From Fidelibacterota bacterium (lineage in GTDB: Bacteria > Fidelibacterota > UBA2242 > JAOZSR01): 54,735 nucleotides of DNA. A model generated the notes under the pieces. It made no database searches. It was not told where the DNA came from and saw only the letters and a program-made list of their open reading frames with translations. The stretch covers positions 5,329 through 60,063 of the forward strand of contig JAOZSR010000010.1 of assembly GCA_029939575.1 (NCBI GenBank), given 5' to 3'. The translations under genes and the position numbers were made by a program. Of this stretch, positions 4,650 through 47,163 are shown piece by piece (the stretch's first letter is position 1; each line of letters opens with the position of its first letter).

Positions 4650-4655
4650 TCTATT

Positions 4656-4670
4656 GGAGATTAAAAAATT
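4656..4670 (+). promoter_or_regulatory. Ribosome-binding site deciding a rare ATT start
   Basis: GGAGA at 4656-4660 sits seven bases upstream of an in-frame ATT at 4668. Beginning there adds a normal signal peptide to the following barrel protein, whereas the first in-frame ATG (4725) falls inside the hydrophobic core and has no ribosome-binding site. Confidence 0.6.
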
Positions 4671-5339: not shown

Positions 5340-6817
5340 AGCGGTTTATCATTCTCATAATCATAAAATGTTTTACGATTCAAATCAGCAATTAATAATT
5401 TATAACTTATAAATGCTTCTAATTTACTAATATAGGCATTATTCAATCTGTTCCTGTTAAGAGCTAAGGATTGACTATCTATATCACCATTGGCAAATCG
5501 TTCCTGACTGATGTTAAAACTTTTTTCGGCCACAATTACATTTTTTTCCAGCAATTTTAATCTTTTTAGGCTACTTTTTAGATTATTAACTGTTTTTCGG
5601 ATATCTCTTACAACATTCACTTTTTCATTATTAATAGAATATTCCGCCTTTCTTAATCTGGCTTTCGCAGCCTCAACCCGCGAGCGGTTTACACCCCAAT
5701 CCCAAATTGGAATTGAAATATTTAATGAAACGCCTTTATTACCCGGCCGATTTTGTAATTCCTGCATTGTGTTACTAAAAAGAGTCGAGTATGCCACACC
5801 ACGATCGTTTTCGCCAACTCCAATAAAATCATAATATCCGGAGATGGAACCTGTAATCTGTCCATTGACTTTTGTTTTTCGAATATTAATCTCAGAAAGC
5901 GATTTATTAATTTCTCTTTCCCGGATTTCCAGCCTGTTTGCCAAACCTCTTTTAATAGCCTCTTCTATATTGACCTGAATAATTTTATAGGACATGTCTG
6001 AATTTATAACAATGGAGTCTTGTAAAGGAATCCCAAGTATTTGTTTGTAAATATCTTCCTGAGATCTGGCATTTGAAATTGCAATATCAAAATTATTTTG
6101 GGCTACACCCAGGTCGACTTCCATTTGAAGAGCCTCTACTTCTGCTATTACACCTGCTTTAAATTTATTCTGAGCCAAAGTAAACGCCTCTTGCTGATAA
6201 TCCATAGTTTGCTTGGCGATTTTTTTACTTTCATAGCAGGAAACCAGGGAATAAAAAGCGTTACTTACTTCATATTTCAGATCAAGTTGGGCACGGTCAA
6301 GTTGCTTGTTTGATAATTCAAAATATAATTTCGCTTCACGCAAAGATGTTTTGATTTCATTATAGGCATAAATCGCTTCAATAGGCTGCTGGAATCCTAG
6401 ACGAGTGTTTAATTGGGCTGAATTACGTTCCTTGTTAAAATCCTGAAGTGTATATATTCCGGAACTTAAGAAAAAATGGCCATCGGTTGGTAATGGCTGA
6501 CTGATTCTGATATCCGCTTCATATATTGATTGTTGGATCGGGGAATAGTAGACTCCCAGACTATCTTCAAATCTTCGCATGGTTTCTGTATAGTTTGGCA
6601 ATGTCATATCAAGATTAATATTTGTTTTAAAACGATTTGTTGCCACAGCAAGCTGATGTTTTGCTTCCAGAAGATTTTCTTTTAGAGTTTTCATTTTGTA
6701 ACTCTTTTCTAAAGCGATCTCCAGGCTTTTTTCCAAATCCAGGGTATGGATATTTTTTGCAAACACTAAATGAATGAGTAAAACAAATAGTACAAATAAT
6801 AGATTTTTACGAATCAT
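5336..6817 (-). CDS. TolC-family outer-membrane efflux protein
   Basis: A 493-residue outer-membrane channel subunit with a signal peptide (KNLLFVLFVLLIHLVFA) followed by the two long alpha-hairpin repeats of the TolC/OEP family. The typical opening LDLEKSLEIALEKSYKMK is present, and the second repeat includes NRLEIREREINKSLSEIN and SLNISIPIWDWG. Trimers form a duct across the outer membrane and periplasm. It is the last gene of a four-gene minus-strand operon with two adaptors and a MacB-like permease, so it probably serves that exporter; the gap to the permease gene is 19 bases. Confidence 0.9.
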   Translation of the reverse strand: MIRKNLLFVLFVLLIHLVFAKNIHTLDLEKSLEIALEKSYKMKTLKENLLEAKHQLAVATNRFKTNINLDMTLPNYTETMRRFEDSLGVYYSPIQQSIYEADIRISQPLPTDGHFFLSSGIYTLQDFNKERNSAQLNTRLGFQQPIEAIYAYNEIKTSLREAKLYFELSNKQLDRAQLDLKYEVSNAFYSLVSCYESKKIAKQTMDYQQEAFTLAQNKFKAGVIAEVEALQMEVDLGVAQNNFDIAISNARSQEDIYKQILGIPLQDSIVINSDMSYKIIQVNIEEAIKRGLANRLEIREREINKSLSEINIRKTKVNGQITGSISGYYDFIGVGENDRGVAYSTLFSNTMQELQNRPGNKGVSLNISIPIWDWGVNRSRVEAAKARLRKAEYSINNEKVNVVRDIRKTVNNLKSSLKRLKLLEKNVIVAEKSFNISQERFANGDIDSQSLALNRNRLNNAYISKLEAFISYKLLIADLNRKTFYDYENDKPL

Positions 6818-6836
6818 ACAAATTTCCTGTTATTAA

Positions 6837-8084
6837 TTATTCATATCTTAGGGCTTCAATAGGATCAAGATCCGCAGCTTTATTGGCTGGGAAATATCCA
6901 AATATTATTCCAATCATACTACTTACTCCAAAAGATAAAATCACCGACCAAAAAGAAACTGCTGTTTCCCAATCTGAGAAAATTGTCACAAAAAAGGATA
7001 ATAGATAGCCAATAAAAATTCCAATTAATCCTCCCGTTAAACTCAAAATCAACGCTTCTACTAAAAATTGATTTCGTATATCACTTTTAGTTGCTCCAAG
7101 TGAGCGTCGAATTCCGATTTCTCTGGTCCTCTCCAGAATTGAGGCAAGCATAATATTCATGATTCCAATTCCTCCGACTAAAAGGGATATTCCGGCGATA
7201 GCTCCCATAACAATATTAAAAATTTTCTGAGTTTCCTCACTTTGGCGAAGAAGTTGTTCGGGTATTATCAATTTATAATTTTTTTGTTGATTATGACGAC
7301 GAAATAAAATTTGATCAATAAAATCTGCACTTTTTACAACATGATCAGTGCTATTGACTTTTACAATTAACTGGTCGAGTTCACTTGCTCTTGGATCCCG
7401 TTCAAAACGGGTTGTAATAGTTTTTACCGGAGCAAATATATGATTGTTTAAATTTATTTCAGTATTTCCGGCTACACTGACAGGCTGGTATTCCAACACT
7501 CCCACAATTGTAAACCAAATATTATCTATCTTGATATGCTTACCAAGTGGGTCTTCAACTCTGAATAGGTTCTTCGCTACATTAGCTCCGATTACACAGA
7601 CCTTACGATAACTCTCATTATCAAGTTTGGAAAAGTAGCCTCCCTCTTTTAATCGAAGATTTGCCAATTTGAAATAAAGTGGCTCAGATCCAATTAAGGT
7701 TATTTCTTCAAAACGGGTTTTATAGTTTGCATCTGTATTAATTTCAACAACCGGTGCTCCAAAACTCACAGAAGGTAAAATATTAACTATAGCTTCCAGA
7801 TCGGAGTGGTTAAGTAAAACCGCTGATTGCCCTTCGTTTTCTTCCAGTTCTGCGATGTTGTGGACGATAATATTTTGCAAACCCAGTGATTGAATTTGGG
7901 ACATTGCCTTTCTACGAGCTCCCTCTCCAATAGCCAGCATAGAGATAACAGCAGCCACGCCAAAAATAATACCCAGCATAGTTAGAAAAGAACGAAGTTT
8001 ATGCTCTTTTAGTCCTTGTACGGAGATATTTAACTGTTCTGAAGTAATCAGGTTTAATTCACGGAATAGATTGAGATTTTTCAC
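6837..8084 (-). CDS. MacB-type ABC transporter permease (FtsX fold), no ATPase domain
   Basis: A 415-residue inner-membrane protein of the MacB permease type. One N-terminal helix (RSFLTMLGIIFGVAAVISML) is followed by a large periplasmic domain (about residues 55-280, MacB_PCD-like) and three C-terminal helices. The conserved ERTREIGIRRSLGATKSDI coupling motif precedes the third helix. Unlike MacB itself it lacks a fused nucleotide-binding domain, and no separate ATPase is encoded in this operon. Such mechanotransmission permeases work with HlyD-type adaptors and TolC to expel peptides, lipids or lipoproteins from the periplasm. Substrate unknown. Confidence 0.88.
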   Translation of the reverse strand: MKNLNLFRELNLITSEQLNISVQGLKEHKLRSFLTMLGIIFGVAAVISMLAIGEGARRKAMSQIQSLGLQNIIVHNIAELEENEGQSAVLLNHSDLEAIVNILPSVSFGAPVVEINTDANYKTRFEEITLIGSEPLYFKLANLRLKEGGYFSKLDNESYRKVCVIGANVAKNLFRVEDPLGKHIKIDNIWFTIVGVLEYQPVSVAGNTEINLNNHIFAPVKTITTRFERDPRASELDQLIVKVNSTDHVVKSADFIDQILFRRHNQQKNYKLIIPEQLLRQSEETQKIFNIVMGAIAGISLLVGGIGIMNIMLASILERTREIGIRRSLGATKSDIRNQFLVEALILSLTGGLIGIFIGYLLSFFVTIFSDWETAVSFWSVILSFGVSSMIGIIFGYFPANKAADLDPIEALRYE

Positions 8085-8109
8085 ATTATATCCAGATTAA
8101 TATTATAGA

Positions 8110-9423
8110 TCAGCCAACAATGACGACTCTTCTATGTTTACTACTTTTTTTATTTGATTTCTTTTTTTTAGGACGCATTTCATGAGATGCGTCGGGCAGA
8201 TTATCTGATTCAGCCCTTAACCTGATAAGGTCACCATCACTTAGACCTTTTTCAACTACAATAAAATCAGCATTGGATTTGCCAGTTTCAATTTCAATAA
8301 ATTTATTATTTTCATCATATACGCCGGTTTTTTCATCTTTGGTTGTAATTGCATCGATTGGAATAAAAAGAGTATCCGCAATTTTTTCAACAAAGATTTG
8401 ACAAGTAGCACTCATCCCGGGTTTTAACCGTTCATCTTTTTCATTTACATTCACTTCTACGTCGAAAACATTTTTTTCAGTCTTACGGTCTGTGTGTGCC
8501 AATGAAGAAATACTAGTAACTGAACCCGTATAAAAAGTGTCAATTATCGCATCAAGATGAATATGTACTTCCTGATCAATTTTTAGCCTGGAAATATCAA
8601 CCTCGTTGACCTGGAGTTTAACTTTCATCCCGGATTGACTTGGTATTTCCAGTAGTGGCTGATTTCTCCATGGTGATGATCCGACTTTGACTTTTTCAAG
8701 TCCGCCGGGTCCCCAAATCTCTTTATATACAACCAGACCATGAGTTGGAGAAATGAGTGTGAGCTGGTTTAGTTCTTCCTGCGCTCTTTCTACTGAAATT
8801 TTTGCCTGCTCTATGGCAAGTTGAGTTTCATGAATTGAGGCATCGTTTATTTTTTTTGTTTCCTGAATTTTTTCTTTTAGACGGTTATAAGATATTTTTG
8901 CTTTTTTCAGAGTATATTCAATTTCTTTACGTTTATTTTCAGCTTCATATATTGCATTTTGAGCCTGAAGTTTTGTTTGTTCAAGATTGTATTCTTCTAT
9001 TTGTAATTGGCTAACCAAATCAGATGTTTGTTTTGCAATATTTGCCATTTTTACTTCCAGATTCGCTTTAGCAGACTCCAATTCGTTCTGTTTTCTTTGT
9101 AATTGCTCCATAAATTCTGCTGTATCAAATTGGATTAAAAAATCGCCGGAATCCACAACAGTACCCTCTTCTATCATTTTAACAATTCTAATATTTCCCC
9201 AGATCCTGGATGGCGAATTAATCACGTGGGATTCAATTGCTTTCATCTCACCGATAGCTTCAATATCAATAATGAATTCGCCTTTTGAGACAATATATTT
9301 GGGGAATTTATCATTATCTGAGAACCATTTATTATAACTAAATGCGATTGTCATGAAAAGTAAAACTAACATGACCAGGCGGGACAGATTTTTTTTGATA
9401 AATATTTTTTTTAGTAATTTCAT
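8110..9423 (-). CDS. HlyD/MacA-type periplasmic adaptor
   Basis: A 437-residue membrane-fusion protein. The N-terminal anchor helix (LSRLVMLVLLFMTIAFSY) is followed by the split lipoyl-like domain, a long coiled-coil hairpin (about residues 100-220, rich in Glu/Lys/Gln), then beta-barrel and membrane-proximal domains including LKPGMSATCQIFVEKIADTLFIP. The C-terminus is strongly basic (RPKKKKSNKKSSKHRR), which is unusual for a periplasmic domain and could bind polyanions or membranes. It lies between another adaptor and the permease gene with 17 and 25-base gaps, so all four genes are probably one transcript. Confidence 0.88.
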   Translation of the reverse strand: MKLLKKIFIKKNLSRLVMLVLLFMTIAFSYNKWFSDNDKFPKYIVSKGEFIIDIEAIGEMKAIESHVINSPSRIWGNIRIVKMIEEGTVVDSGDFLIQFDTAEFMEQLQRKQNELESAKANLEVKMANIAKQTSDLVSQLQIEEYNLEQTKLQAQNAIYEAENKRKEIEYTLKKAKISYNRLKEKIQETKKINDASIHETQLAIEQAKISVERAQEELNQLTLISPTHGLVVYKEIWGPGGLEKVKVGSSPWRNQPLLEIPSQSGMKVKLQVNEVDISRLKIDQEVHIHLDAIIDTFYTGSVTSISSLAHTDRKTEKNVFDVEVNVNEKDERLKPGMSATCQIFVEKIADTLFIPIDAITTKDEKTGVYDENNKFIEIETGKSNADFIVVEKGLSDGDLIRLRAESDNLPDASHEMRPKKKKSNKKSSKHRRVVIVG

Positions 9424-9440
9424 TATAAACCTATTCCTGG

Positions 9441-10694
9441 TTAAAATGTTGGTATTTGTTTGTTGGAAATAATTTTCAAATTTTCTGATATATTTCCTTC
9501 TATAATTGCAGATCCGTCAAAAAGTTTGCATAGAGTTATTGGTATTTGTTTTTGCTCTGTAGTTTTGATATGAAATTGACCATCATTTTGAAATAAACAC
9601 CAGGATGGAATTCGGAAAGCCCGAGCATATTTATTGGTTATAATTTCAACCTTTGCTGACAATCCTGGTTTCAATCTGAAATTTTCTTTGGAATTTATTC
9701 TGACATGAATTGTATAGGTCTTAGTAAAGGATTCTTCAAAATCAAAATTCACAACATTGGATTTATATATTACATTTCCGGTAAAAACAGTATCCGGAAA
9801 AGCTTCGATGCTCAATTTTGCATTCATTCCCTGAGTTACATTTTGATAATCAACTTCGTTCAGGTCAATTACAGCCATCATGTTATCAGGATCCGGAATT
9901 TTTAATACTCCCCGCCTCGGACGGATAGAATCACCAATTTTAATTTTTTCTCCTCGCCTGTGTTGCTTTTGATAAACAACCATTCCATCTTTAGGCGCTA
10001 TGAGAAACATATCAGAAAGCATATTTTTGGCTTGAGAAACATTAAGTTCAGTTTGCTTAATATTGAGTAAAATATCATTTTCACTGTTTTTATTTAATAT
10101 TTTTTGAGCTTTAAGAGATTCTTTCGCTGACTTTAGGTTTAAATCAGTTTTTTTTACTTCCAATCTGGCATCTTTTTGATCATTATCAGAATTAAAATAA
10201 GATTGCTTAAGACGACTATCAGCAATTTTTTTTTGAATTTCCAGTTTTTTAATCTGGCTCTCATGCTCTCTGATAGATTCCTGATTCCGTAATCTTGTTT
10301 GTATTATCTGCTGTTTGAGAATATCCAGTTGTTTCAAAAATCCATTAAGTTTTGATTCTACCTGCCTGGTATCAAAAACAACTACAGTGTCACCCTTATG
10401 AACTCTTGTTCCTTCATCAGGAATAAAGGTTATCTGGTAGGTCAGATCCCAATTAGACGGTGCTGTTATTTCAGTAGCATTTATTGATTCTATTTTCGCA
10501 GATTCTATAATTGTTGATAGGCTGTCTTTTTGTACTAAGAAATATTTCTCAGATGAAATATCTTTTCTACTACTGCAGGAAATTAAAATTAAAAAGATGA
10601 AAAATGTAAAAAATATTTTATGATTTTTTTTCCAAATTATTAGTGTGTTAAAATCGACTTCTTTATTTTTATCCATCTTATATAAAAAACTCAT
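9441..10694 (-). CDS. Second HlyD-type adaptor, probable lipoprotein
   Basis: A membrane-fusion protein related in layout to the adjacent adaptor: lipoyl half-motif (PDEGTRVHKGDTVVVFDTRQ), coiled coil (about residues 110-210), second half-motif (APKDGMVVYQKQHRRGEKIK) and a barrel with FRLKPGLSAKVEI. The N-terminus has a basic stretch (WKKNHK), a hydrophobic core and LISC followed by SSRKD, a lipobox-like cleavage site, so it is probably lipid-anchored. I placed the start at ATG 10694, which has GGGAA about six bases upstream; TTG 10706 or the internal ATG 11 codons... further in (MDKNKE) are alternatives. It is the first gene of the four-gene exporter operon. Two different adaptors in one operon is uncommon. 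Confidence 0.82.
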   Translation of the reverse strand: MSFLYKMDKNKEVDFNTLIIWKKNHKIFFTFFIFLILISCSSRKDISSEKYFLVQKDSLSTIIESAKIESINATEITAPSNWDLTYQITFIPDEGTRVHKGDTVVVFDTRQVESKLNGFLKQLDILKQQIIQTRLRNQESIREHESQIKKLEIQKKIADSRLKQSYFNSDNDQKDARLEVKKTDLNLKSAKESLKAQKILNKNSENDILLNIKQTELNVSQAKNMLSDMFLIAPKDGMVVYQKQHRRGEKIKIGDSIRPRRGVLKIPDPDNMMAVIDLNEVDYQNVTQGMNAKLSIEAFPDTVFTGNVIYKSNVVNFDFEESFTKTYTIHVRINSKENFRLKPGLSAKVEIITNKYARAFRIPSWCLFQNDGQFHIKTTEQKQIPITLCKLFDGSAIIEGNISENLKIISNKQIPTF

Positions 10695-10840
10695 GTTTAT
10701 TCCCAATTTCTATTTCCAGGTAATATAGGATTAAATTCTTTTAACACATCATTACTTTGTCTTATAACTCTTCAAAAAAAACCTGAAAAATATAATATAA
10801 ATACAAATATAAGAGCATAAAGTTTCAAATTTAGAACAAT

Positions 10841-35579: not shown

Positions 35580-37619
35580 TTATTTTACCAACATCATCTT
35601 GCGTATTCCGCTATATTCTCCTGCTGAGACTTTGTAGAAATAGACACCGCTGGATAAGGCTCCTGCATCAAAATTGACGGTATGAATTCCAGCTGCCATA
35701 TTCTGATCTACAACTTCATCAACCAATTCCCCATTAACATTAAATATATTTATTTTTACATGTTGAGCTAAGTTAATAGAGTATTTAATTGTTGTTGTCG
35801 GGTTAAATGGATTAGGATAATTGGGAAATATATAAAAATCATTTGCTACAGAAATTTGATCTTTTTCAATTTTGCTGGCTTGGTTTGGATTTCCTTTTGT
35901 TGGCTCGTTGAATTTTTGCCAGATATTTACTCCATCAGGAAACCGCCCCTCACTTTTATCCGGTTGTTGTTGATCAAAATCATAAAAATCCAAACCGGAT
36001 AAACTATCTGAAGCAGTTAACATAATTACATCATCTCCTTCGGAAGAAAAACTAAAGCCCAGAACATCTTCATAAATAACCAGAAATTCACCTGGTTCAA
36101 TGATAGAAATCAATTCAGATGGAAATGTCCATTTGGTATTATTACTTCTCTGATCAGATAAAAAACATCCGGCTAAATCAAAAGACTCTGTTCCCCGATT
36201 ATATAGTTCAATCCAATCATCTACTCCACCTAAAGCGCTGGTAGTTTGGAATTCATTAATACATACAGTAGAAAACAATTCACTGGATTCATTTCCAGTG
36301 CCGGGAGTAGGAGTTGCTAAATATTCGGGAGCAGTACCATCTTCCGGCTTGAATCCTACCGAAATATCCTGGCTCATTCTTCCATATTTCCAGCCATGAA
36401 TTAGTACATTGCCATGGTCAACAGTTTCAAAAAGTGCTATGGCTTCTCCCTGGGAAGACAATTTGAAATCAACATGTAAAATACCCTCTTCGGGATCATT
36501 ATCAGCCCAGAAAATTATATATTCATCAGGTGCGAGATTCAGTTGAGGTAGTTGAAAGGATTTTGATGAACCCATAGAATTACCAACATACATCCCGTTT
36601 AAGTTTACACTTTCTGATCCATAATTATGAATTTCAAACCAATCTTCATAATCACCGTTTTCATCGGTATTGACAGATTTATTCACCGCTAACAATTCGG
36701 TAATTCGAAGTTTTGGTAATGTATGTCCAACAGTATATGCATGGTACTCTGTCGGAGCATTGTTTGGCCAATTATCAGTTTGTCCAATATTATCTGTGGC
36801 TTTAGTAAAATATTTTACCAAAGTACCATCAGTTTGTTCGGATATTACTGCAGTATAAATTGAGTCACCTGCTGCAACATCTTCATTTAAACCATCATCA
36901 TGCATTGGCAGGCTAACATAACCCTGCCCGGTATTCAGAAATAATTCAACTCCGGACAAACCCTCGTTATCAAAAGCAGTAACGGTAATTGTAACTTTAT
37001 CGGAACTGACAGGCAGGCTGACAGAACGTTTCCCATTTTTGCATATTGGCTGAATATTTTGAGTAAAAACACTGTTTTGTTCTCCAGGAGTCCCATTATC
37101 CACAGAACTCGGGTCCCAACTGGCCGGGAGAGAATTATCAGCATTTGGATTGAGAAGTTCTAGTGACGGACCGTTACCATCTGGTGAGCCCGGCCATTCA
37201 CCACCATCATTATAATCAACACTGTTATGCAGATTACCGGAATTATCAAATAAACGAACCATATCACCACCATTACCAAGAGACCAGCCATTGCCATTAT
37301 TATCAAATACATTTGGATTGATATTTGAAACTCCGGCATATTTTGTTGTAAATTGACTCATATCAGCTGCTATCACCAGGTATTCTCCGGCATCTAAGGT
37401 CCAATCAATTATACAATGTGCATGGTCATCATTATCATCAAGAAGATACCAGTTTTGTAAATTTTGAGCAGTTCCGCTCACATTATACAATTCAACGAAT
37501 TCTACATCAGTGCCATCACTGTTATACATAATTTCATTTATTACAATAGAATTGCCGGCTAAGGTTATTTGAAATGCTAAAAAGCTAAAGATTATGTATG
37601 TCGAAATTTGTTTTTTCAT
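35580..37619 (-). CDS. Secreted lamin-tail-domain protein with T9SS sorting domain
   Basis: A 679-residue exported protein. Signal peptide (TYIIFSFLAFQITLAG), then three lamin-tail-like beta domains (about residues 24-165, IVINEIMYNSDGTDVEFVEL; about 300-430, LRITELLAVNKS with EDWFEIHNYGSESVNLNG; about 450-560, VCINEFQTTS with DDWIELYNRG). An Ig-like segment lies between the first two. The final 85 residues are a type A sorting domain (YPNPFNPTTTIKYSIN, INIFNVNGELVDEV, SSGVYFYKVSAGEYSG). Lamin-tail domains are commonly joined to CotH kinases in VTC/DUF4956 clusters; here no CotH kinase domain follows. It is the last tightly linked gene of the VTC operon (28-base gap). Confidence 0.85.
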   Translation of the reverse strand: MKKQISTYIIFSFLAFQITLAGNSIVINEIMYNSDGTDVEFVELYNVSGTAQNLQNWYLLDDNDDHAHCIIDWTLDAGEYLVIAADMSQFTTKYAGVSNINPNVFDNNGNGWSLGNGGDMVRLFDNSGNLHNSVDYNDGGEWPGSPDGNGPSLELLNPNADNSLPASWDPSSVDNGTPGEQNSVFTQNIQPICKNGKRSVSLPVSSDKVTITVTAFDNEGLSGVELFLNTGQGYVSLPMHDDGLNEDVAAGDSIYTAVISEQTDGTLVKYFTKATDNIGQTDNWPNNAPTEYHAYTVGHTLPKLRITELLAVNKSVNTDENGDYEDWFEIHNYGSESVNLNGMYVGNSMGSSKSFQLPQLNLAPDEYIIFWADNDPEEGILHVDFKLSSQGEAIALFETVDHGNVLIHGWKYGRMSQDISVGFKPEDGTAPEYLATPTPGTGNESSELFSTVCINEFQTTSALGGVDDWIELYNRGTESFDLAGCFLSDQRSNNTKWTFPSELISIIEPGEFLVIYEDVLGFSFSSEGDDVIMLTASDSLSGLDFYDFDQQQPDKSEGRFPDGVNIWQKFNEPTKGNPNQASKIEKDQISVANDFYIFPNYPNPFNPTTTIKYSINLAQHVKINIFNVNGELVDEVVDQNMAAGIHTVNFDAGALSSGVYFYKVSAGEYSGIRKMMLVK

Positions 37620-37647
37620 TATTTTTGCTCCACAATTAGTATAGTTA

Positions 37648-38430
37648 TTATTTGTCTAAATGAAATTTGGGGATTCTTCCATCATCAGAGGAACCGAAAA
37701 GGGAATCTATACCATAACAGTATTTGGAAAATCCCCGTTGCATAAGGTTAAATTTGCGTATTAATTCAACTGCCCAAAATGGTACATTATTTTCTACTTT
37801 TATTTCCAGAATAACCGGAGAATCAAAATGTCTTGTTGTAATAGGATCATCATAATAAGACATGTCCTGTTCTTTATAGTTTAACCCAACATTACCATAA
37901 GTCTGGCGACAACAGAGATTGCGATCAAAGGTAACACGACCATATTCTTCTAATTCAGTAACATAGGGTTCACGAAAATAGCGGACATGAAGGACTGAAT
38001 GAGCATTGTGCCAATAAACAATATTATCAAAAGTATCCAGACGTTTATTGATCATAGGAGGCTCTGGATTTACATTTTCCAGAGTAAATAGACTGTGCCA
38101 GTCTTCTATTGGTAAATAGTATCTCTTTTTCCAGACAACACTTGCGATTTTGTATTTGATTTCAGGCCAGATAAAATCTGTTGCGGCTTCTCCATAAAAA
38201 CGCGCCCTCGCTTTGTAACGATTTGTTTTTTTATATTTTGTATCATAATAAAATTTAAAATCAGAAGTGTCAAAATATAAATTATTTACAATATATCCCT
38301 TTTCACCTTCAGGAACATTTTTATCCATAGAACAAATATCTTTTATATAATCACGAATTTCCAGAGCCATCTGTTCTGAAATTGTGTATTTCAGTTCATA
38401 GCGCCTGATCTCGCTCAGGTTTTTTGACAT
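37648..38430 (-). CDS. VTC-domain protein (polyphosphate polymerase-like)
   Basis: A 260-residue cytoplasmic protein made of a single VTC domain, a triphosphate-tunnel-type barrel that in yeast Vtc4 makes polyphosphate from ATP. Tunnel-lining basic and acidic positions are present in order: RRYELKYTI, NNLYFDTSDF, NRYKARARFYG, WPEIKYK, VVWKKRYY, VTFDRNL, PVILEIKVENNVPFW and the C-terminal RGFSKYCYG. The pattern of alternating Arg/Lys (KARAR) and Glu (EIKVE) fits a catalytically competent enzyme. It starts four bases after a TolC-type gene and belongs to an operon with DUF4956 and an HlyD-like fusion, so polymer export is a reasonable idea (inference). Confidence 0.9.
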   Translation of the reverse strand: MSKNLSEIRRYELKYTISEQMALEIRDYIKDICSMDKNVPEGEKGYIVNNLYFDTSDFKFYYDTKYKKTNRYKARARFYGEAATDFIWPEIKYKIASVVWKKRYYLPIEDWHSLFTLENVNPEPPMINKRLDTFDNIVYWHNAHSVLHVRYFREPYVTELEEYGRVTFDRNLCCRQTYGNVGLNYKEQDMSYYDDPITTRHFDSPVILEIKVENNVPFWAVELIRKFNLMQRGFSKYCYGIDSLFGSSDDGRIPKFHLDK

Positions 38431-38434
38431 TCAC

Positions 38435-39784
38435 TTAATCCTGAATATTTAAGCATTCATTACTTTCAATACCAATGGCCAAAAATAAATCGATTAATGC
38501 GTACATAACATCTTTTTTCTTCTCAAACAGTATTTTTTGTGTTTCAATGGCAGTTAACTCCATTTCTAAAACTTCATCAGGAAACAAGGTTTCATGCTGT
38601 TTTGCCTGATCAATAACTTCATTTACATTTATAAGCATTTCATCAGCATTTTTTTTGAAATCTCTCCATTCTATAAAAAGATCTCTGTATATGATATATG
38701 CCGACCGAACTTCTTCTGCAATAGATTCCTGTATGGCACTTAATTCTCCCTGTTTTTTTGTTACGGCTAATTTTGTTGCCTTGATATTACCGCGGTTCCA
38801 ATTGAAAATCGGCAAGCTAATCCCGACAGAAAATTCTTTCCATTTATCTCCATCATTTTGTTTATGATATGAGTATTCTGCAAAATTTATCCAGGGAACT
38901 AATTTAAATTTTTCCATATTTTTTTTCCGAATTGCCAATGCAATTTTATTTTGTACAAGTCTAATTTCCGGACGATATTGATACGCTAATGATATTAACG
39001 TGTCAAGATCCTGTGTTACAGCCGGCATTTCATTGGTTAATAATAAAGAATTTTCCGCAATACCACTTCGTCTTGCTAATATCCGACGGGCTAATTTTTG
39101 ATTTTGCACAGTTTGTGTGTAATTGGTTTTTGATTCTGCGTGCCACATTTTAGCCTTGGTAAAATAAACTACAGAGCGATTCCCAAGATTTACCATTTGT
39201 TCAATAATCTTAATACGTTCATTTTCTTTCTCAACTCGTTGTAAGGCAAGGTCAACGAGATTGTCATACATGATTACTTTAGCAAAGTTCTTTTTAATTC
39301 TGGCAATAACTCTTTGTCTGTATTGAAATTCTTCTATTTGTTTTTCAACGATGTTTACCAATGCTTGTTGTTTTTCTTTGCGAATTTCCCCGAGTTCCGG
39401 GAATCGCAAGCGTAAACCTGCTTTGACTTCACTAAAATTATAAGGTAAATCTTCTATGATTTTATCCTTATCAGGATTGTCTAAAGTTTCTTCTCCAAAC
39501 CGAAGTTCCGGGTTTTGTAACCACTGAATAGATTTATAGCGATATTTTGCAATTTCTGTGTTGGTGGTTAAGGATTTTAGTTTATCGCTGTTCTCTAATG
39601 CCGAATTGATTATTTCTTGTTCCGATAATGGAATACCAGATGAGATCTCAACACCTGGCCTACTAATATTATCCGCAGTAGCTGTAACAGTAAAAAAAAG
39701 TATCAGTAAACAAAAATTGGTTATAGATTTCACCATTTTTTTTAACAGGCTGTTTGCCGCATTGTGTCTGGTTTTTGGTTTCAT
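38435..39784 (-). CDS. TolC-family outer-membrane channel (VTC operon)
   Basis: A 449-residue outer-membrane efflux protein with a signal peptide (ITNFCLLILFFTVTATAD), the opening LSEQEIINSALENSDKLKSL, coiled-coil hairpins and the second repeat YRPEIRLVQNKIALAIRKKN with VGISLPIFNWNRG. It is more like CzcC/CusC-type channels than the TolC at 5.3-6.8 kb. Its ATG overlaps the adaptor stop codon (ATGA at 39781-39784), so adaptor and channel are translated in step and probably form one duct. Confidence 0.88.
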   Translation of the reverse strand: MKPKTRHNAANSLLKKMVKSITNFCLLILFFTVTATADNISRPGVEISSGIPLSEQEIINSALENSDKLKSLTTNTEIAKYRYKSIQWLQNPELRFGEETLDNPDKDKIIEDLPYNFSEVKAGLRLRFPELGEIRKEKQQALVNIVEKQIEEFQYRQRVIARIKKNFAKVIMYDNLVDLALQRVEKENERIKIIEQMVNLGNRSVVYFTKAKMWHAESKTNYTQTVQNQKLARRILARRSGIAENSLLLTNEMPAVTQDLDTLISLAYQYRPEIRLVQNKIALAIRKKNMEKFKLVPWINFAEYSYHKQNDGDKWKEFSVGISLPIFNWNRGNIKATKLAVTKKQGELSAIQESIAEEVRSAYIIYRDLFIEWRDFKKNADEMLINVNEVIDQAKQHETLFPDEVLEMELTAIETQKILFEKKKDVMYALIDLFLAIGIESNECLNIQD

Positions 39785-41853
39785 AGTTGATTCCTGTCAA
39801 TATAACAAAAAGCAGGTGTTTCATTGTCATTATCAAACACTATTAAAAATTTCGAATCACTTTGCTGGCATAAACCTTCCGGTTTTTTGCCAGGAAATGT
39901 AAAAATCCTCTCTGCTACTAAACGACCATCAACATAGGAATTAATGCGATGGAATCCTCCAACCTGCTCATCTTTTGCAGTATTTGGATAAGTCGATAAA
40001 GCCCACAAAATGCCTTGATCATCAAACATCAAATCAGAAATACCGGCATATTTTTTTTTGATTTTCCCCAGATTAACCCTACCAAGAACTGTTAATTGAT
40101 TAGGTAATAATTTTTGATTTTGAAAAATACTATCGACATTATCAAGTTTCAGAATAATTGCTCCATTATCCGAAACCGGTTCTTTCAATCCAAAATATAA
40201 AGCATTATTATGATATGTAGCACCTTCAATATTTAAAATAGGTTTTCCATCTTTTGCCAATTGTTCCAAACCAAGTGCAAACAATTGTTCTTTCGAATAG
40301 GAGTTAAGGATTAATGAAAGTAAATATGCTTTCTTCTCTACTATATATTTATTGCCAATAGTTTTCACCTTTAATATTAATTCACGATTGGATGGGCGTT
40401 TATTTTTTTTGCTTATATTTTGAGATGAAATAAGATAAAAATCATTCTCTCCCAAGGGCACAATTGCTTCAAGATCATTTATGGTTTTTATTCCGGACAA
40501 TATAACCATAGATGAATCTATCACCCCATTTTCATCCATAAAAAATAAATAGGGAGCATGATCATTTTTTAAATTTTTAATTCCTGTATCATCACTAATA
40601 ATCAGGTACTTTTTTTTTTCATTTAACCAGGAAATGCCGGAAGGTTCAAAACGTGTTGTTTTAGATAAAGAGGCAGGAACCTCTATATTTTTCACATCGG
40701 GATAATTATTCTTTTGAGTATTTGAATCTTCTCTTCCATTTGCAAAAACAGAAAACAAACCTTTGTTTTTTTTATCTGATAAAACTCTTGATGTGATAAC
40801 TTCGCCGGGAATTAGGAAATGATTTTCCGGCAATTTCACTCTAATTTTACGTGCCCAAATAATTTGACCGCGAAAAAATAATCGGTTACTGGCCTGAGAA
40901 ATTCCAGGATGAATAAAGGTAATAGTACCCTGTGTATCAAATTCTCTTTTCCGTGATGAAAAAATATCTACTTTCGCACCTATAACGGGTAACACACTTG
41001 AGGTCTCGGGAATATAAATATCAACGAAACGAGGAGTTAATTCTTCAACCTTAAGAATAGGAACGAATTCTTCGACAATGTCACCTCTGTAACTAAAAAT
41101 TTCTGTTACATAACCGTCACAAGGCGATGAAATTGTACGTAATTTCAAACGATGTTTAATTTCAGAAATTTGTCTTTGAAGTGATTCTGTGTACTGAATT
41201 TGTTCTGTCAACATAGAATTTGTAAGAGAATCTAAATTTACATCCTTTAGAAGTTTACGTGATTCTTTGGTTTTTTCAAGTTGTTGTTTTTGATTATCAA
41301 AATCTTTACTTTGTTCTTTTAGATAAGCGGCTAAAGCATCTCTCTGAAGAATTAATTCAGACATGTTTCTACTGTGCCCAAGGCCGGCTTCTTCAGCATT
41401 TTTTAATCTTTTTATTTCTACATTTAACCCTACAAGTTCAGTACTTTTTGCTTCAATTTCTGATAAGTTATTTATTATATCTGATGCTTCATTTTCTAAT
41501 TGAAGTGCCGTTTTATACGCAATTATTGAAAATTGTTCATGTTGGCTACCTTCCAAACTCCGGATTTTGTTTAATTCACTTTTCAGTTGATTTAAAGTTG
41601 TTTTTAGATCTGACATATCAAGAATAGCCAAAACCTGGTCTTTTTTTACTTTGTCGCCAATATTAATTAATTCATTATACATTTTACCAGGTTCCTGGGC
41701 TCCGACAAAATGAGATTTTTTCTCCACAACTCCCAGAAATCTTTTATCAATATGCCATTTTCGATAGAGAAAAAAAATGATGAACAAGGAAATTATAAAA
41801 ACAATTGTATAATAATTAAAATTTAGTGTTTGTTTAAATTTTATAATTTTCAT
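39781..41853 (-). CDS. HlyD-like adaptor fused to a putative beta-propeller (phytase/SdiA-regulated-like)
   Basis: A 690-residue protein with two parts. Residues 1-340 form a membrane-fusion protein: anchor helix (TIVFIISLFIIFFLY), lipoyl half (MYNELINIGDKVKKDQVLAI), long coiled coil (about 80-240), second half (SSPCDGYVTEIFSYRGDIVE) and a barrel with LPENHFLIPGEVI. Residues about 360-690 look like a propeller of the esterase-like phytase / SdiA-regulated / DUF3616 type: FEPSGISWLNEKKKYLIISD, NIEGATYHNNALYFGLKEP, ISDLMFDDQGILWAL, KPEGLCQQSDSKFLIVFDND. The EGA/EGL and DxD-like acidic patches recall calcium or phosphate sites. The fusion is unusual. It follows DUF4956 by nine bases. Confidence 0.82.
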   Translation of the reverse strand: MKIIKFKQTLNFNYYTIVFIISLFIIFFLYRKWHIDKRFLGVVEKKSHFVGAQEPGKMYNELINIGDKVKKDQVLAILDMSDLKTTLNQLKSELNKIRSLEGSQHEQFSIIAYKTALQLENEASDIINNLSEIEAKSTELVGLNVEIKRLKNAEEAGLGHSRNMSELILQRDALAAYLKEQSKDFDNQKQQLEKTKESRKLLKDVNLDSLTNSMLTEQIQYTESLQRQISEIKHRLKLRTISSPCDGYVTEIFSYRGDIVEEFVPILKVEELTPRFVDIYIPETSSVLPVIGAKVDIFSSRKREFDTQGTITFIHPGISQASNRLFFRGQIIWARKIRVKLPENHFLIPGEVITSRVLSDKKNKGLFSVFANGREDSNTQKNNYPDVKNIEVPASLSKTTRFEPSGISWLNEKKKYLIISDDTGIKNLKNDHAPYLFFMDENGVIDSSMVILSGIKTINDLEAIVPLGENDFYLISSQNISKKNKRPSNRELILKVKTIGNKYIVEKKAYLLSLILNSYSKEQLFALGLEQLAKDGKPILNIEGATYHNNALYFGLKEPVSDNGAIILKLDNVDSIFQNQKLLPNQLTVLGRVNLGKIKKKYAGISDLMFDDQGILWALSTYPNTAKDEQVGGFHRINSYVDGRLVAERIFTFPGKKPEGLCQQSDSKFLIVFDNDNETPAFCYIDRNQL

Positions 41854-41862
41854 AATAGTTCT

Positions 41863-42540
41863 TTAAACCTCCACTGTTGCTTCTTGATTTATATATGAAA
41901 TGCCTCTGATGTTATTTATTTGTTCTAATTGTTGGATGAGTACCTGATTGGCTGATGGCGTGCTCAGCTTCACCTGATAAGCATAATCAATCACATTACC
42001 TTGAGCAACATTTCGCATTGTTACCAAAACGAATTTCTTTGTATAATTTTGCATAATTTTTGTCACTTGTGAAGAGGCTTCGGGACCAGCTGGTATCTGG
42101 AAACGCACCAGCCCGTCATGTTTTCTTCGGGTACCAAAAGGAGAAATATAAAGAATTATTACAACCAGGGAATAAACCAGAGCGCCAATCACTGCAGTTT
42201 CATAGCTCTGAACACCGCAAGCCACTCCAACTCCAAGTGAAGCGAAGAGAAAAATAAGATCCCGTGGATCTCGTAAATTTGTCCGAAAACGTATAATTGC
42301 CAAGGAACCAACAATACCGATTCCTCTGGCTATATTGTCACCAATCGCTATCATTAACAAACATGAAACAATGCTACCCAAAACCATACTTTGTACTAAT
42401 CCACGGGAGTAAGACAATCCCTGAAAAGTACGTTCATAAACTAAGGCTATAATACTGGATAATGAAAAGGCTAACAGGAAAGATAATAAAGCCACTTGCC
42501 ATTCAATTTGTTCAAAACCATAATTTAGTAAAGTTTGCAT
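41863..42540 (-). CDS. DUF4956 membrane protein
   Basis: A 225-residue inner-membrane protein with about four N-terminal helices and a soluble C-terminal domain from residue 145. The family core IARGIGIVGSLAIIRFRTNL then RDPRDLIFLFASLGVGVACG is present. DUF4956 genes are repeatedly found with VTC-domain genes, often together with CotH kinases, and the family is suspected to be the membrane partner of a bacterial VTC enzyme. It is the first gene of the five-gene operon and faces a 666-bp promoter region. Confidence 0.9.
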   Translation of the reverse strand: MQTLLNYGFEQIEWQVALLSFLLAFSLSSIIALVYERTFQGLSYSRGLVQSMVLGSIVSCLLMIAIGDNIARGIGIVGSLAIIRFRTNLRDPRDLIFLFASLGVGVACGVQSYETAVIGALVYSLVVIILYISPFGTRRKHDGLVRFQIPAGPEASSQVTKIMQNYTKKFVLVTMRNVAQGNVIDYAYQVKLSTPSANQVLIQQLEQINNIRGISYINQEATVEV

Positions 42541-43206
42541 ATTATCTCCTGAAAATTTCTAATCATTTTTTCCCCAAATCTCATTTTTCTATAATACTAA
42601 TAATTTCTTAACATCTCGTGTTATTCTGTTAATTAACATGTTGTTGTGTTTTTGACAATCCTGTTGAATCTTGCAATAAAATTCTCTTCATGAATATTTA
42701 CTTCCATTATTATACAGTTGGAAATCATGCTATCCCCACTTCTATCTGGAATTTATAACAAGTCTGATAATTATTACTATATTTTCCCCTAATTGGCAGG
42801 TTAAACGACTGGTTGTTCAATTCCAAATAACAAATAAAAAAATACTAAAAAGTATCAACAATAGCAAATTAATTTCAAGAGGTAAAATTGATAACATAAG
42901 CAGGTATAATCTGAGGTTACATTATAAAATAAACAAAATCGGACAAAATATTTAATAAAATAACCTATTCAATAAAATAGAGCCATATCCTCTATTATTC
43001 ATAAATTTTTGTTAAATATTAACCTCTAACTTTAGCGGGGAAAAAAATCAACAAACTCATAAACCCAACTTTAGTCAGAAATATTCATATCTTGGATAAA
43101 AATATCAAAATAAAACTAAAATAATTTCCTTGACAGATAAAAAAAATTAAAATAAATTAGTCCAATCTTAGTTACTCATGTCTGAGTTAATAATCTTTGG
43201 AGGGCA
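42541..43206. other. Divergent promoter region, DUF4956 operon / GH13 gene
   Basis: A 666-bp, very AT-rich spacer with no credible reading frame. It contains a small inverted repeat (AATAGAG 42976-42982 facing CTCTATT 42990-42996). The plus strand ends with GGAGGG at 43199-43204 just before the ATG at 43207, an unusually short spacing. Promoters for both operons are expected here; I cannot place them. Confidence 0.5.
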
Positions 43207-46200
43207 ATGAATCGATTCATACTAACAATTTTTATTCTTATCCCAACACTACTTTTTGCTGCAACTGATGTTTATTGGGAACCTGTAAATCCACAACCAG
43301 GTCAAAATTTTACTATATATTACAACCATGATGACAGAGGTGTATTACCGGTAGCAACATCTCCGGTTTATCTACATATAGGATATAATGATTGGCAAAG
43401 TACAAATGATTTTGCTATGTCTGAAACTGGTGATTACCACACTTATACTTATTCAGTTCCCAATGATGCAGAGTCTATTAATTTTGTTTTTACAAATAGC
43501 GCTCAGGACAGTTGGGATAATAATTCCGGTATAAACTGGGACATTCCTCTTAACCATGTTCAATCTCCAACAAACCCAAAACCGAATGAATCATTAACCC
43601 TGACATTATCAAATATAACAAAAGCCGGATCAGTTTACTGGTATATCAAAACTTACGATTACAAACAATTACCAATAGAAGAATACAGACCGGCTTCCAG
43701 TATTATAAGTAATGATCATCATGGGATTGAATCTCCAATGCTTCCAACCGGCACTCCTAATCAATACTCCATTACTTTTCCTGCTTTTAATACCGGAAAG
43801 CAGGTAGTGGATAAAATTTATTATACAATTAATTACAATGATGAAAGTTGGCTTGGAAAAATGCATGAAATCATTTTTCATCATGATGAAAACAATATCA
43901 GTTTTTCCTCTCCGGCAGAAAATACTTTTATAAATAAAAATACAGCGGTTTCTATCGCAGGAACCAGCTCCAATATAGATGAACTTAAAATCTGGGGTGG
44001 ACAGCAACTGCTAACTGAAATTACCGGAACAACTTTTAATTATTCATGGAACCCATCACAAACCCATCCGGAAACCTGTTTTGGGAAATATTGGATTACT
44101 ATCCAGGGTACTAATACATCATCGGGAGAAGTATGCTTTTCCAGAAGATTGATTGATATTGAGGCTAACCCGGTTCAGATATCCTATTCCGGCATTTTAA
44201 ATGATGGCGTAAGTGTAAACGGAAATCAGGCTGTCATTGCACTTTATGCACCAGGAAAAGAATACATCTCTATTTCAGGAAATTTCAATCAGCCCTATAT
44301 TCATGGAAAAATGATGAACAATAATGGTGATGGCTGGTGGTGGTACTCACTTAATCTTTCGCCTGGAAAATATTCTTACCAGTATGAAGTAAAAGATGAT
44401 AACTTTGGATGGACAAAAAGACTTGCCGATCCCTACAGCAAAGAATTGATCTGGAACGTTCCCGGAACAGAAAATGAATCCGGAGATATCAATCTTGCCA
44501 AAAGTGTATTTTATATCGGGACTTCTGATTTTGCATGGACAGATCATTATTACACACCTCCATCAAAAGAAAAATTCATAATCTACGAAACTCATATTGG
44601 TGATTTTTCCGGTGAAGATAACTTTGGAGGCGATTATTCTGATATGCTGGCTAAAGTAGAATCAGGATATTTTAATGATTTAGGTATTAATGCAGTAGAA
44701 ATTATGCCACTTCATGCTTTTGGGGGAGAAATGAGTTGGGGCTACAATCCTGCTTTTTACCTGGCTCCTCCAAATTGTTATGGTACTGTTAATGAATTAA
44801 AAACATTGATCAACAGTTTTCATAATCATGGAATTGGTGTAATTCTGGATGTGGTCTTTAATCATACTTATGGATCATCATCCACTTTTCAACTTTTCCA
44901 TGCGGAAGGATATTACGGCGCTGAAGAATGGCGGACACATCATGATTTCACTAACGATCCTTATTATAAAAACGGAGATTCCGAATGGGGCTACCCCCTG
45001 GATCACAGCAAAAACAAAACAAGGGACCTGATTGATGAAACCCTGGCCTGGTATGTTAGCGAATATCACATTGACGGATTCCGCTTTGACCATCCTCACG
45101 AAATGATCTGGGATAGTTATGATTATGGATTACAGCATTATTCATGGACAGTTAAACAAATCAATAATGATTTATTACTAATTGCCGAAGAAGATAATCC
45201 AACCGGAATAAATAATTCAAACTTTGATTCACAATGGGATTTTTCCGCTTATCATACATTCAAGGAAAACCTCTTTCAAATTGGTGATTGGGGGAATATT
45301 GATAATATTGCCAATGGGATTTATCATGATGGCCATAATAATCATTACGGACCGGTTAAATATACAGAATCCCATGACGAATCCCGTATCATTTATGAGG
45401 GAATGGAATACCAGAATTTTTCCAAAGATTTCGCAGTTAAAAAGTCCAAACTCGGCGCTGCAATAATTTTTACATGCACAGGTATTCCGATGATTTATCA
45501 CGGACAGGAGTTTGGACAAAACGCCCCGAAAAACGGTACTGATCCACAGCCATTGCAATGGGATACACTAAACACCGATTCCGGTGCTGATCTTTTTAAT
45601 TATTATAAAACTTTAATAGAATTACGAAAAAACAGCGAGGCTTTAACCGATTGGAAATTAGAAACAAGACAGAAATTTTTCACCGAAAAATCAATTGTCT
45701 ACTGGCGGAATGGGAATAAAGAAAAATATGTCATCGTCGCAAATTTTGATAATCAAAATCACTCTCTTAATATAGAATTTCCAAATTCAGGAAAATGGAT
45801 TGATGTCATTACTGAGCAGGAAATTAATATCGAGTCTTCATGGTATAGTTCATATCCGCTACCAGCTTCCGAAGCCCGAATTTTCAAATTTATTCCGGAA
45901 GTTTATGTCCCGGGAACTCATAATGACTGGGATCTTGATAATGATAACTTGGCAACAAGAAAAGAGAATTTTGGTGGTGATATTATCTATTACGGTAAAA
46001 CAATCCAGACTGCGGTAGATAATGAGTTTGCTATAGTTTACGGTGATTGGTCAAATAAATGGTGTAACGGATACTGGGTAACGGATTATGATACAAAACA
46101 TGATTTTGGCTGGTCCGGAAATAATGCTATATGGAAAAATTCGCCTAATACATACATCCATCTTAATATCCAAAATCCGGCTGATGCAATTTCAAAAAAT

Positions 46201-47163
46201 ATTCCCCTTGGAATTATGAAATTGAGCGAAATTCCGGCCAATATTTTATCAGTAACAACAGATTATTTTAATGGCACGTTTCTGAGATTACATATTACAA
46301 CAGATAATGCATTATGTAACGAAGAAAAAATTTATATCCGTGTTGCTCCGGATGGAAATTTTGCTAATGATTTATTCATAAGAGCTACAGGATCGGGAAA
46401 TGATTACTATGCTGAAATCTCGGACATTAGTTTCCTGAACTATATTGAATATTACGCTTTAAGCACCACTCTGACTTATGCTGAAGACAATAATCTTGAT
46501 AATTACACTGACTTAATGACTATTAATTATAACACAAATAATGGCCAGAACTACAAATTAGATCAAGATCAATCACTGGCTGTTGAATTATCAAAATTCA
46601 ACGCAACCCTAAAAAACGGCGGTGTAGAAATTACCTGGACAACCCAATCAGAAACTAATAACCTGGGATTTAATGTTTTTCGAAAATCATCTTCTGATGA
46701 GGATTTTATAAAAATTAATCCAGAAATTATTAGAGGCGCCGGAAGTTCATCCATATCACATAAATATACTTTTTATGATATGAAAATTATTTGTGGTGAA
46801 AAATATTTCTATAAACTGGAAGACATTGAGTATAGTGGAAAGAGGTATTTTAGTCATGAAATATCAATTAATATTCCGGAAAGTACTACTAATTTACCGG
46901 AACAATTATGTTTGTCATCATTATATCCAAATCCCTTTAATCCAACCTTAAATATAAAATTCGAAGTTCCGGAAAGAGATTGGATCAATATTTCCATGTA
47001 TAATCTTAAGGGTCAAAAAGTTGAACAACTTTTAAACAATGAAAAAAATAAAGGGATTCATGAATTGCAATGGAATGCATCAGCCCATTCTTCAGGAATC
47101 TATTTCATTAAGCTATCATCAAAAGAACATTGCACGGTAAAATCTTGTGTATTAATCAAATAA
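43207..47163 (+). CDS. Secreted multi-domain GH13 alpha-glucan enzyme with T9SS sorting domain
   Basis: A 1318-residue exported enzyme. Order: signal peptide (FILTIFILIPTLLFAA); CBM25-like starch-binding module (about 18-115, VYLHIGYNDWQ, SAQDSWDNNSG); two beta-sandwich modules; CBM48-like module (about 330-430); GH13 barrel (about 455-830) with DVVFNH (548-553), GFRFDHPHE with nucleophile Asp628, LIAEEDNP with acid/base Glu661 and TESHDE with Asp724; an alpha-amylase C-domain; two further modules; an Fn3-like linker (about 1123-1225); a type A sorting domain (YPNPFNPTLNIKFEVP). The AEE and ESHD motifs resemble branching enzymes and trehalohydrolases more than classic alpha-amylases. Likely acts on starch or glycogen at the cell surface. 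Confidence 0.88.
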   Translation: MNRFILTIFILIPTLLFAATDVYWEPVNPQPGQNFTIYYNHDDRGVLPVATSPVYLHIGYNDWQSTNDFAMSETGDYHTYTYSVPNDAESINFVFTNSAQDSWDNNSGINWDIPLNHVQSPTNPKPNESLTLTLSNITKAGSVYWYIKTYDYKQLPIEEYRPASSIISNDHHGIESPMLPTGTPNQYSITFPAFNTGKQVVDKIYYTINYNDESWLGKMHEIIFHHDENNISFSSPAENTFINKNTAVSIAGTSSNIDELKIWGGQQLLTEITGTTFNYSWNPSQTHPETCFGKYWITIQGTNTSSGEVCFSRRLIDIEANPVQISYSGILNDGVSVNGNQAVIALYAPGKEYISISGNFNQPYIHGKMMNNNGDGWWWYSLNLSPGKYSYQYEVKDDNFGWTKRLADPYSKELIWNVPGTENESGDINLAKSVFYIGTSDFAWTDHYYTPPSKEKFIIYETHIGDFSGEDNFGGDYSDMLAKVESGYFNDLGINAVEIMPLHAFGGEMSWGYNPAFYLAPPNCYGTVNELKTLINSFHNHGIGVILDVVFNHTYGSSSTFQLFHAEGYYGAEEWRTHHDFTNDPYYKNGDSEWGYPLDHSKNKTRDLIDETLAWYVSEYHIDGFRFDHPHEMIWDSYDYGLQHYSWTVKQINNDLLLIAEEDNPTGINNSNFDSQWDFSAYHTFKENLFQIGDWGNIDNIANGIYHDGHNNHYGPVKYTESHDESRIIYEGMEYQNFSKDFAVKKSKLGAAIIFTCTGIPMIYHGQEFGQNAPKNGTDPQPLQWDTLNTDSGADLFNYYKTLIELRKNSEALTDWKLETRQKFFTEKSIVYWRNGNKEKYVIVANFDNQNHSLNIEFPNSGKWIDVITEQEINIESSWYSSYPLPASEARIFKFIPEVYVPGTHNDWDLDNDNLATRKENFGGDIIYYGKTIQTAVDNEFAIVYGDWSNKWCNGYWVTDYDTKHDFGWSGNNAIWKNSPNTYIHLNIQNPADAISKNIPLGIMKLSEIPANILSVTTDYFNGTFLRLHITTDNALCNEEKIYIRVAPDGNFANDLFIRATGSGNDYYAEISDISFLNYIEYYALSTTLTYAEDNNLDNYTDLMTINYNTNNGQNYKLDQDQSLAVELSKFNATLKNGGVEITWTTQSETNNLGFNVFRKSSSDEDFIKINPEIIRGAGSSSISHKYTFYDMKIICGEKYFYKLEDIEYSGKRYFSHEISINIPESTTNLPEQLCLSSLYPNPFNPTLNIKFEVPERDWINISMYNLKGQKVEQLLNNEKNKGIHELQWNASAHSSGIYFIKLSSKEHCTVKSCVLIK

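Follow-up and report, generated by a model that had tools for sequence, protein, structure and literature searches.

Gram-negative synthase-dependent exopolysaccharides (cellulose, alginate and Pel) are extruded across the envelope by their own synthesis and leave through an outer-membrane conduit. For polyphosphate, the fungal VTC complex couples synthesis and translocation through one channel, pump-free (PMC9911596). In Gram-positive bacteria, genes for VTC ('poly-phosphate polymerase'), DUF4956 and CotH are accessory to pelDEADAFG clusters (PMC7112168). The crossing of the outer membrane by Gram-negative surface polyphosphate is unexplained; the paper on the gonococcal pseudo-capsule goes no further than to allow for a part played by other gene products (PMC10237660). 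Here we describe a gene cluster in a 54,735-nucleotide stretch of DNA (the window) from a Fidelibacterota bacterium, in which a VTC-domain protein and DUF4956 are encoded together with an HlyD-type adaptor and a TolC-type channel. On balance, the cluster probably specifies a synthesis-driven polyphosphate secretion system, in which VTC would polymerise the chain, DUF4956 would pass it through the inner membrane, and the adaptor and TolC-type channel would conduct it out. The module offers concrete candidate parts for the outer-membrane step, in other bacteria.

Results

Five packed genes occupy positions 35580-42540 on the minus strand of the window, as defined by open reading frame (ORF) coordinates and Pfam, with gaps of 9, -4, 4 and 28 bases between successive genes:

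41863..42540, minus strand: DUF4956 protein, 225 amino acids (aa), the proposed inner-membrane passage (Pfam DUF4956, E=1.8e-12)
39781..41853, minus strand: HlyD/EmrA-type periplasmic adaptor, 690 aa (Pfam HlyD_D23, 3.1e-8)
38435..39784, minus strand: TolC-type outer-membrane channel, 449 aa, with an N-terminal signal-like segment (Pfam OEP, 1.7e-17, two repeats)
37648..38430, minus strand: VTC-domain (triphosphate tunnel) protein, 260 aa (Pfam VTC, 3.5e-34, residues 10-245)
35580..37619, minus strand: lamin-tail-domain (LTD) protein, 679 aa (Pfam LTD, 5.8e-43; Por_Secre_tail, 1.3e-11)

An initial annotation, made from the sequence alone, had proposed these genes as a trans-envelope polyphosphate exporter; its five genes, coordinates and gaps were all matched by ORFs, and its domain identities by Pfam.

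The order DUF4956-adaptor-TolC-VTC (order A, or type A for the loci that carry it) is not confined to the window genome, and the conserved co-occurrence of the four genes that the initial annotation had put forward for checking was found across genomes. Neighbourhood counts throughout derive from best-scoring matches and are uncorrected for kinship. Among 100 relatives searched, genomes G008 and G014 have the same five genes, as does G006, where they are spread over two contigs. A DUF4956 profile scan of GTDB contigs returned 22 loci, two of them on the same contigs as G006 (L054 = G006:C75) and G008, which span KSB1, Caldithrix/Calditrichaeota, Neomarinimicrobiota, Ignavibacteriae, Deltaproteobacteria/Myxococcales and Gemmatimonadetes; order A holds in all of them as far as the contig reaches. 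Including the Myxococcota locus L205, order A is complete in 18 genomes and cut by a contig end in 7, with zero exceptions in at least six phyla. In one KSB1 locus (L047), DUF4956 and the adaptor are separated by two genes, one for an LTD protein and one for a small barrel; the barrel gene (L047:13000-13608, between LTD and adaptor) matches the OMP_b-brl outer-membrane barrel. The reading frames of L065 are broken, possibly by assembly errors.

Other arrangements retain the link. In type B, found elsewhere in the phylum, an HlyD-type protein of ~350 aa precedes VTC-DUF4956, and type D reads VTC-DUF4956-HlyD; both occur in Bacteroidota. There, 29 of the 30 strongest loci have VTC, DUF4956 and adaptor within 1.5 kb; the remaining one is of type A, in an Ignavibacteriae genome, and brings the count to 30/30 by its channel gene, the one within 1.5 kb. 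Strong VTC-DUF4956 pairs likewise have an HlyD-type adaptor within 1.5 kb at 21/21 loci in Marinimicrobia and 7/7 in Gemmatimonadota, the latter including both types A and B. In Myxococcota, where VTC was found in 134/284 genomes, an adaptor or channel lies near VTC-DUF4956 at 24/30 loci (at one of the 24 only with more flank), and six to seven of 13 extended loci (L207, L208, L210, L211, L212, L214 and L223) follow the order VTC-DUF4956-adaptor-TolC (type E). Recurrence of the same four genes in a second order means that the link survives rearrangement. A quick tree built from 59 VTC proteins puts each of types A, B and D on one side of a branch, which points to old arrangements; one genome (G252) carries both A and B.

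Type C comprises VTC and a short DUF4956 without an adaptor. In 10/11 tested cases (L101, L103-L108 and L156-L158, from Marinimicrobia and Bacteroidota), DUF4956 is directly followed by DUF2490, a predicted outer-membrane barrel, and three of these ten DUF2490 proteins also match outer-membrane barrel or porin models. The DUF2490 barrel is a possible second route across the outer membrane, and its presence means that nearly every variant has an envelope part. VTC and DUF4956 form the constant pair, joined almost always by an envelope component as third part.

The VTC domain spans its whole protein, as expected of a TTM-family enzyme. A VTC profile matched yeast Vtc4 (3g3q) with E=2.4e-21 over 239 positions, the window sequence alone reaching only E=0.02 against the PDB. 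Window residues K14, R75, R77, K92 and K101 align with Vtc4 K200, R264, R266, K281 and K294, and R153, R165, E209, K211 and K236 with R361, R373, E426, K428 and K458. Non-conservation of the tunnel residues had been set beforehand as fatal to the export reading; all ten checked tunnel/catalytic positions (10/10) are invariant in 89 bacterial VTC proteins. In yeast, R264A/R266A/E426N abolishes activity of the VTC complex (PMC9911596). The window protein is a predicted polyphosphate polymerase, with the VTC domain alone in its 260 aa and neither the SPX domain nor the Vtc-type three-helix transmembrane (TM) domain of eukaryotic VTC complexes. PPK1 and PPK2 were undetected in the window genome and in three cluster-bearing order-mates, drafts in which single absences are weak; among 24 genomes checked, PPK1 occurs in 7 and PPK2 in 11.

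The AlphaFold2 (AF2) model of the DUF4956 protein (mean pLDDT 76) contains five predicted TM helices (14-39, 46-66, 69-87, 92-109 and 113-132) and a ferredoxin/ACT-like C-terminal domain. Foldseek gave weak matches, with no E-value under 1e-3, to ACT domains and to the C-terminal domain of MgtC (2lqj), and sequence comparison with the PDB gave zero matches. The Pfam match to MgtC (5e-5, 24.1 bits) lies under the cut-off of 31.4, and the likeness to the MgtC/SapB family is one of overall architecture only. A comparison with plasmids gave six weak records for DUF4956. The most conserved stretch, an invariant Arg-rich loop of the RFRTNLRDPRD type, connects TM3 with TM4. The positive-inside rule would place both the loop and the C-terminal domain in the cytoplasm, the side where VTC would be.

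The adaptor model (AF2, mean pLDDT 84) has all parts of a tripartite-exporter adaptor: a TM anchor (helix 14-35), a hairpin of helices 81-155 and 163-238 (~75 residues per arm), a lipoyl domain and a beta-barrel. Its best Foldseek match is EmrA (4tko, E=4e-17), with MacA and AcrA next. Beyond the barrel, a disordered linker (360-382) leads to an all-beta C-terminal domain (387-690). Given this all-beta prediction, Pfam matches of the C-terminal half to DUF6929/DUF6910 (E from about 1e-7 to 1e-6) and a Phytase-like profile match in the same domain of Myxococcota homologues, the domain appears propeller-like (phytase/SdiA-regulated-like). The extra propeller of the initial annotation stands as an extra all-beta domain in the window protein but not as a universal feature: it is present in 17/24 order-A loci with a visible adaptor end (a count that leaves out the L068 fragment) and absent in L051, L055, L056, L058, L059, L061 and L064. 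A fused propeller also occurs in the Myxococcota adaptors of L210-L213 and L217, while in L061 (Gemmatimonadota) a free-standing SdiA-regulated/Phytase-like ORF (4062-4922) overlaps the VTC end; the fused-or-separate pattern ties the propeller to the system.

The sequence motif R-x3-L-x6-S at the hairpin tip is a mark of TolC-docking adaptors. The type A tip, RxxxAxxxGLGxS, is a variant of it, and the motif stands at the aligned tip of most type B and 5/9 type D adaptors; counted anywhere in the hairpin, it matches about 19% of shuffled hairpins by chance. Its retention suggests that these type B and D adaptors may use a TolC encoded elsewhere. The channel gene of the window has the same position in homologous clusters; since a search of PDB sequences with the channel profile found zero matches at E<=0.01, its assignment to the TolC family rests on Pfam OEP.

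An ABC, RND or MFS pump gene is absent from the window cluster; the initial annotation had likewise remarked on the lack of an ATPase, which fits synthesis-driven export. Around 41 type A and Myxococcota loci, ABC, MacB or RND genes were not recurrent, with a MacB-like permease near 2 and an ABC ATPase near 1; MFS genes were looked for only by reading ORFs. The window also contains a separate four-ORF operon (5336-10706, minus strand) encoding an OEP channel, a MacB-type permease and two HlyD-type adaptors, with no ABC ATPase among the four. Because this operon has its own channel and adaptors, the duct of the VTC cluster is a separate set. A few clusters (L033, L043, L045, L056 and L058) have MacB-type genes at distances of up to about 10 kb. 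At the type B loci L033, L043 and L045, MacA/MacB/ABC operons are found a few kb past DUF4956, possibly by chance or as partners.

The fifth gene is more variable. Its LTD protein bears a C-terminal tail of the type IX secretion system (T9SS; also TIGR04183, 2.7e-11) and, as judged by eye, a signal peptide, and is predicted to be a cell-surface protein and probably an accessory part. We considered the cluster as an exporter of this protein and rejected the idea, the LTD protein having its own signal peptide and T9SS tail. In Marinimicrobia, KSB1, Caldithrix and Ignavibacteria, the cluster keeps an LTD gene at its 3' end, CotH proteins taking its place in L060, L064 and L066; the lamin-tail gene proposed as fifth member thus holds for the window and part of the clade, and elsewhere a CotH-kinase protein occurs instead. 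Within the phylum, CotH is commoner where a VTC is present (38/42 genomes versus 75/203; Fisher p=6e-11, kinship uncorrected). It is present in 22/24 cluster-bearing genomes, and the window genome itself has about ten genes for CotH kinases. Given this enrichment, the product could plausibly serve phosphorylation at the cell surface. In G008, a VTC-like remnant with several stops (C245:9267-9473), probably a pseudogene, adjoins CotH genes.

Proposed mechanism and alternatives

In the proposed mechanism, cytoplasmic VTC, whose catalytic residues are conserved, would polymerise phosphate from ATP at the inner membrane, and the growing chain would enter a DUF4956 assembly there. Three features make DUF4956 the candidate passage: its constant pairing with VTC, its five TM helices and the invariant Arg-rich loop predicted to be cytoplasmic. 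The HlyD/EmrA-type adaptor would span the periplasm and dock on the TolC-type channel. Energy would come from the ATP spent in polymerisation, which would make a separate pump unneeded. More speculatively, the chain may be bound or trimmed by the propeller domain where it enters the periplasm, and surface LTD or CotH proteins might use or anchor the product. Other Gram-negative versions would combine VTC-DUF4956 with an adaptor (probably with a general TolC) or with a DUF2490 barrel. The analysis establishes gene content, gene order, conserved residues and fold classes; enzymatic activity, the DUF4956 pore, adaptor-DUF4956 contact and the exported product are what we infer here. The export function first suggested for the window thus gains partial support from the recurring order, the retained tunnel residues, the lack of a recurrent ABC or RND gene nearby and the missing PPK1 and PPK2 of the window genome; its propeller and LTD protein did not prove universal.

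Several points weigh against synthesis-driven export. The TolC gene lies inside only two gene orders, and a general TolC must be assumed for the rest; type C lacks an adaptor, and the type C locus L099 lacks DUF2490 too. TTM proteins have further known activities, the bacterial members are known here from genes and predicted structures, and PPK1 is also present in seven cluster-bearing genomes. DUF4956 resembles MgtC, which has no known role as a polymer channel, and its model is a monomer of modest confidence. A pump partner may also be encoded elsewhere in the genome: consistent pairing of adaptor and channel with an ABC or RND pump from another locus had been named as a refutation, and beside the clusters none recurs.

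The resemblance to MgtC raises the question of whether DUF4956 is an MgtC-like ion or small-molecule transporter, with adaptor and TolC completing a new pump-type tripartite exporter and polyphosphate or short phosphate chains from VTC binding or regulating it, for example in metal-phosphate export. The match to MgtC in Pfam and the ACT/MgtC-like C-terminal domain favour this, as do the usually ligand-binding, regulatory role of ACT domains and the MFS pump that usually partners EmrA-type adaptors. However, DUF4956 is small (5 TM) and pairs with VTC even without adaptor and TolC, as in type C, which makes the polymerase, rather than the duct, its constant companion; we regard such a transporter as unlikely, if still worth serious attention. 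Somewhat less probable again is that VTC phosphorylates or builds another anionic polymer, for instance a surface polysaccharide carrying phosphate or a phosphate donor for surface CotH kinases, and that the duct exports this product. The adjoining of VTC/DUF4956/CotH and Pel polysaccharide genes in Gram-positives (PMC7112168) is consistent with this possibility, as are the CotH enrichment in VTC genomes and the CotH genes after three clusters, but no recurrent glycosyltransferase was seen in the clusters read, the ten polyphosphate-tunnel residues are all kept, and the four core genes are fixed where LTD/CotH genes vary.

ABC, RND or MFS pumps are the usual partners of adaptor and OEP families, and the MacB-type genes near a few clusters, together with the MacB-type operon of the window, could indicate that adaptor and TolC are ordinary efflux parts, with an ATPase or RND pump encoded elsewhere, and stand beside VTC-DUF4956 for regulation only. 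Against this, at least two four-gene orders are kept across phyla without a pump gene, nearly every strong locus in four phyla has the adaptor next to VTC-DUF4956, and the window operon has its own adaptors and channel; we consider this reading improbable.

If synthesis-driven export is correct, the module would amount to a tripartite duct that has no pump of its own. DUF4956 would then gain a function, the eukaryotic VTC mechanism would be linked to an ancestor or relative in bacteria, and bacteria without PPK1 or PPK2 would have a polyphosphate route. More tentatively, and with some doubt on our part, the variants may form a widespread and so far undescribed class of secretion machines in double-membrane bacteria, powered by polymerisation. 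VTC-made polyphosphate would leave through DUF4956 as the pore and then through an adaptor-TolC duct (or DUF2490 barrel), with surface LTD/CotH proteins using the chain, possibly as a phosphate donor for extracellular CotH kinases.

Genomic setting

The window comes from contig 34 of a draft genome of 3.79 Mb, 95% complete, whose same-order relatives include genomes deposited as Candidatus Neomarinimicrobiota. Upstream of the cluster lies one further feature:

42541..43206, no strand: AT-rich intergenic region, 666 bases, separating the cluster from a divergent amylase gene (read directly)

This region likely holds the cluster promoter; consensus scans of it gave weak promoter candidates at most. 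The product of the divergent gene (43207-47163, plus strand) is an alpha-amylase of 1318 aa that carries CBM53/CBM48 as well as a T9SS tail; another T9SS-tailed protein is encoded next. A chance neighbourhood of the cluster genes was considered and rejected, the arrangement being kept across phyla far beyond chance; a horizontally acquired oddity of one genome was also rejected as an explanation.

Comparison with known systems

The initial annotation knew of VTC/DUF4956/CotH clusters and not of their link with a tripartite duct. A search of open-access literature gave the same picture (PMC7112168 for the clusters): no description of a VTC-DUF4956 link to HlyD/TolC, or of polyphosphate export by it, was found there, subscription journals and preprints being outside the search. 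The Gram-positive Pel clusters share the VTC-DUF4956 pair, often with CotH, but serve a single membrane, and an HlyD-type adaptor or TolC-type channel is not described there (PMC7112168). The eukaryotic VTC complex (Vtc1/Vtc3/Vtc4; PDB 8i6v, 7ytj; PMC9911596) resembles the cluster in its TTM polymerase domain and tunnel residues, in joining a polymerase with small membrane proteins, and in that synthesis is thought to drive translocation. Unlike the cluster, it acts at one membrane (vacuole), has SPX domains and the Vtc three-helix TM domain rather than DUF4956, and lacks an adaptor and an outer-membrane channel.

EmrAB-TolC and MacAB-TolC share the adaptor fold (Foldseek EmrA, MacA) and the TolC-family channel. 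The cluster differs from them in having no MFS, ABC or RND pump, with DUF4956 and the polymerase as the proposed inner-membrane part, in its proposed polymer cargo, and in the extra C-terminal propeller-like adaptor domain. Synthase-dependent exopolysaccharide secretion is similar to the proposed function in its synthesis-coupled extrusion and outer-membrane conduit, whereas the cluster would handle an inorganic polymer with a TTM enzyme rather than a glycosyltransferase, and has HlyD/TolC in place of a TPR scaffold and dedicated porin. The single parts thus belong to known families, while the combined machine matches no described kind.

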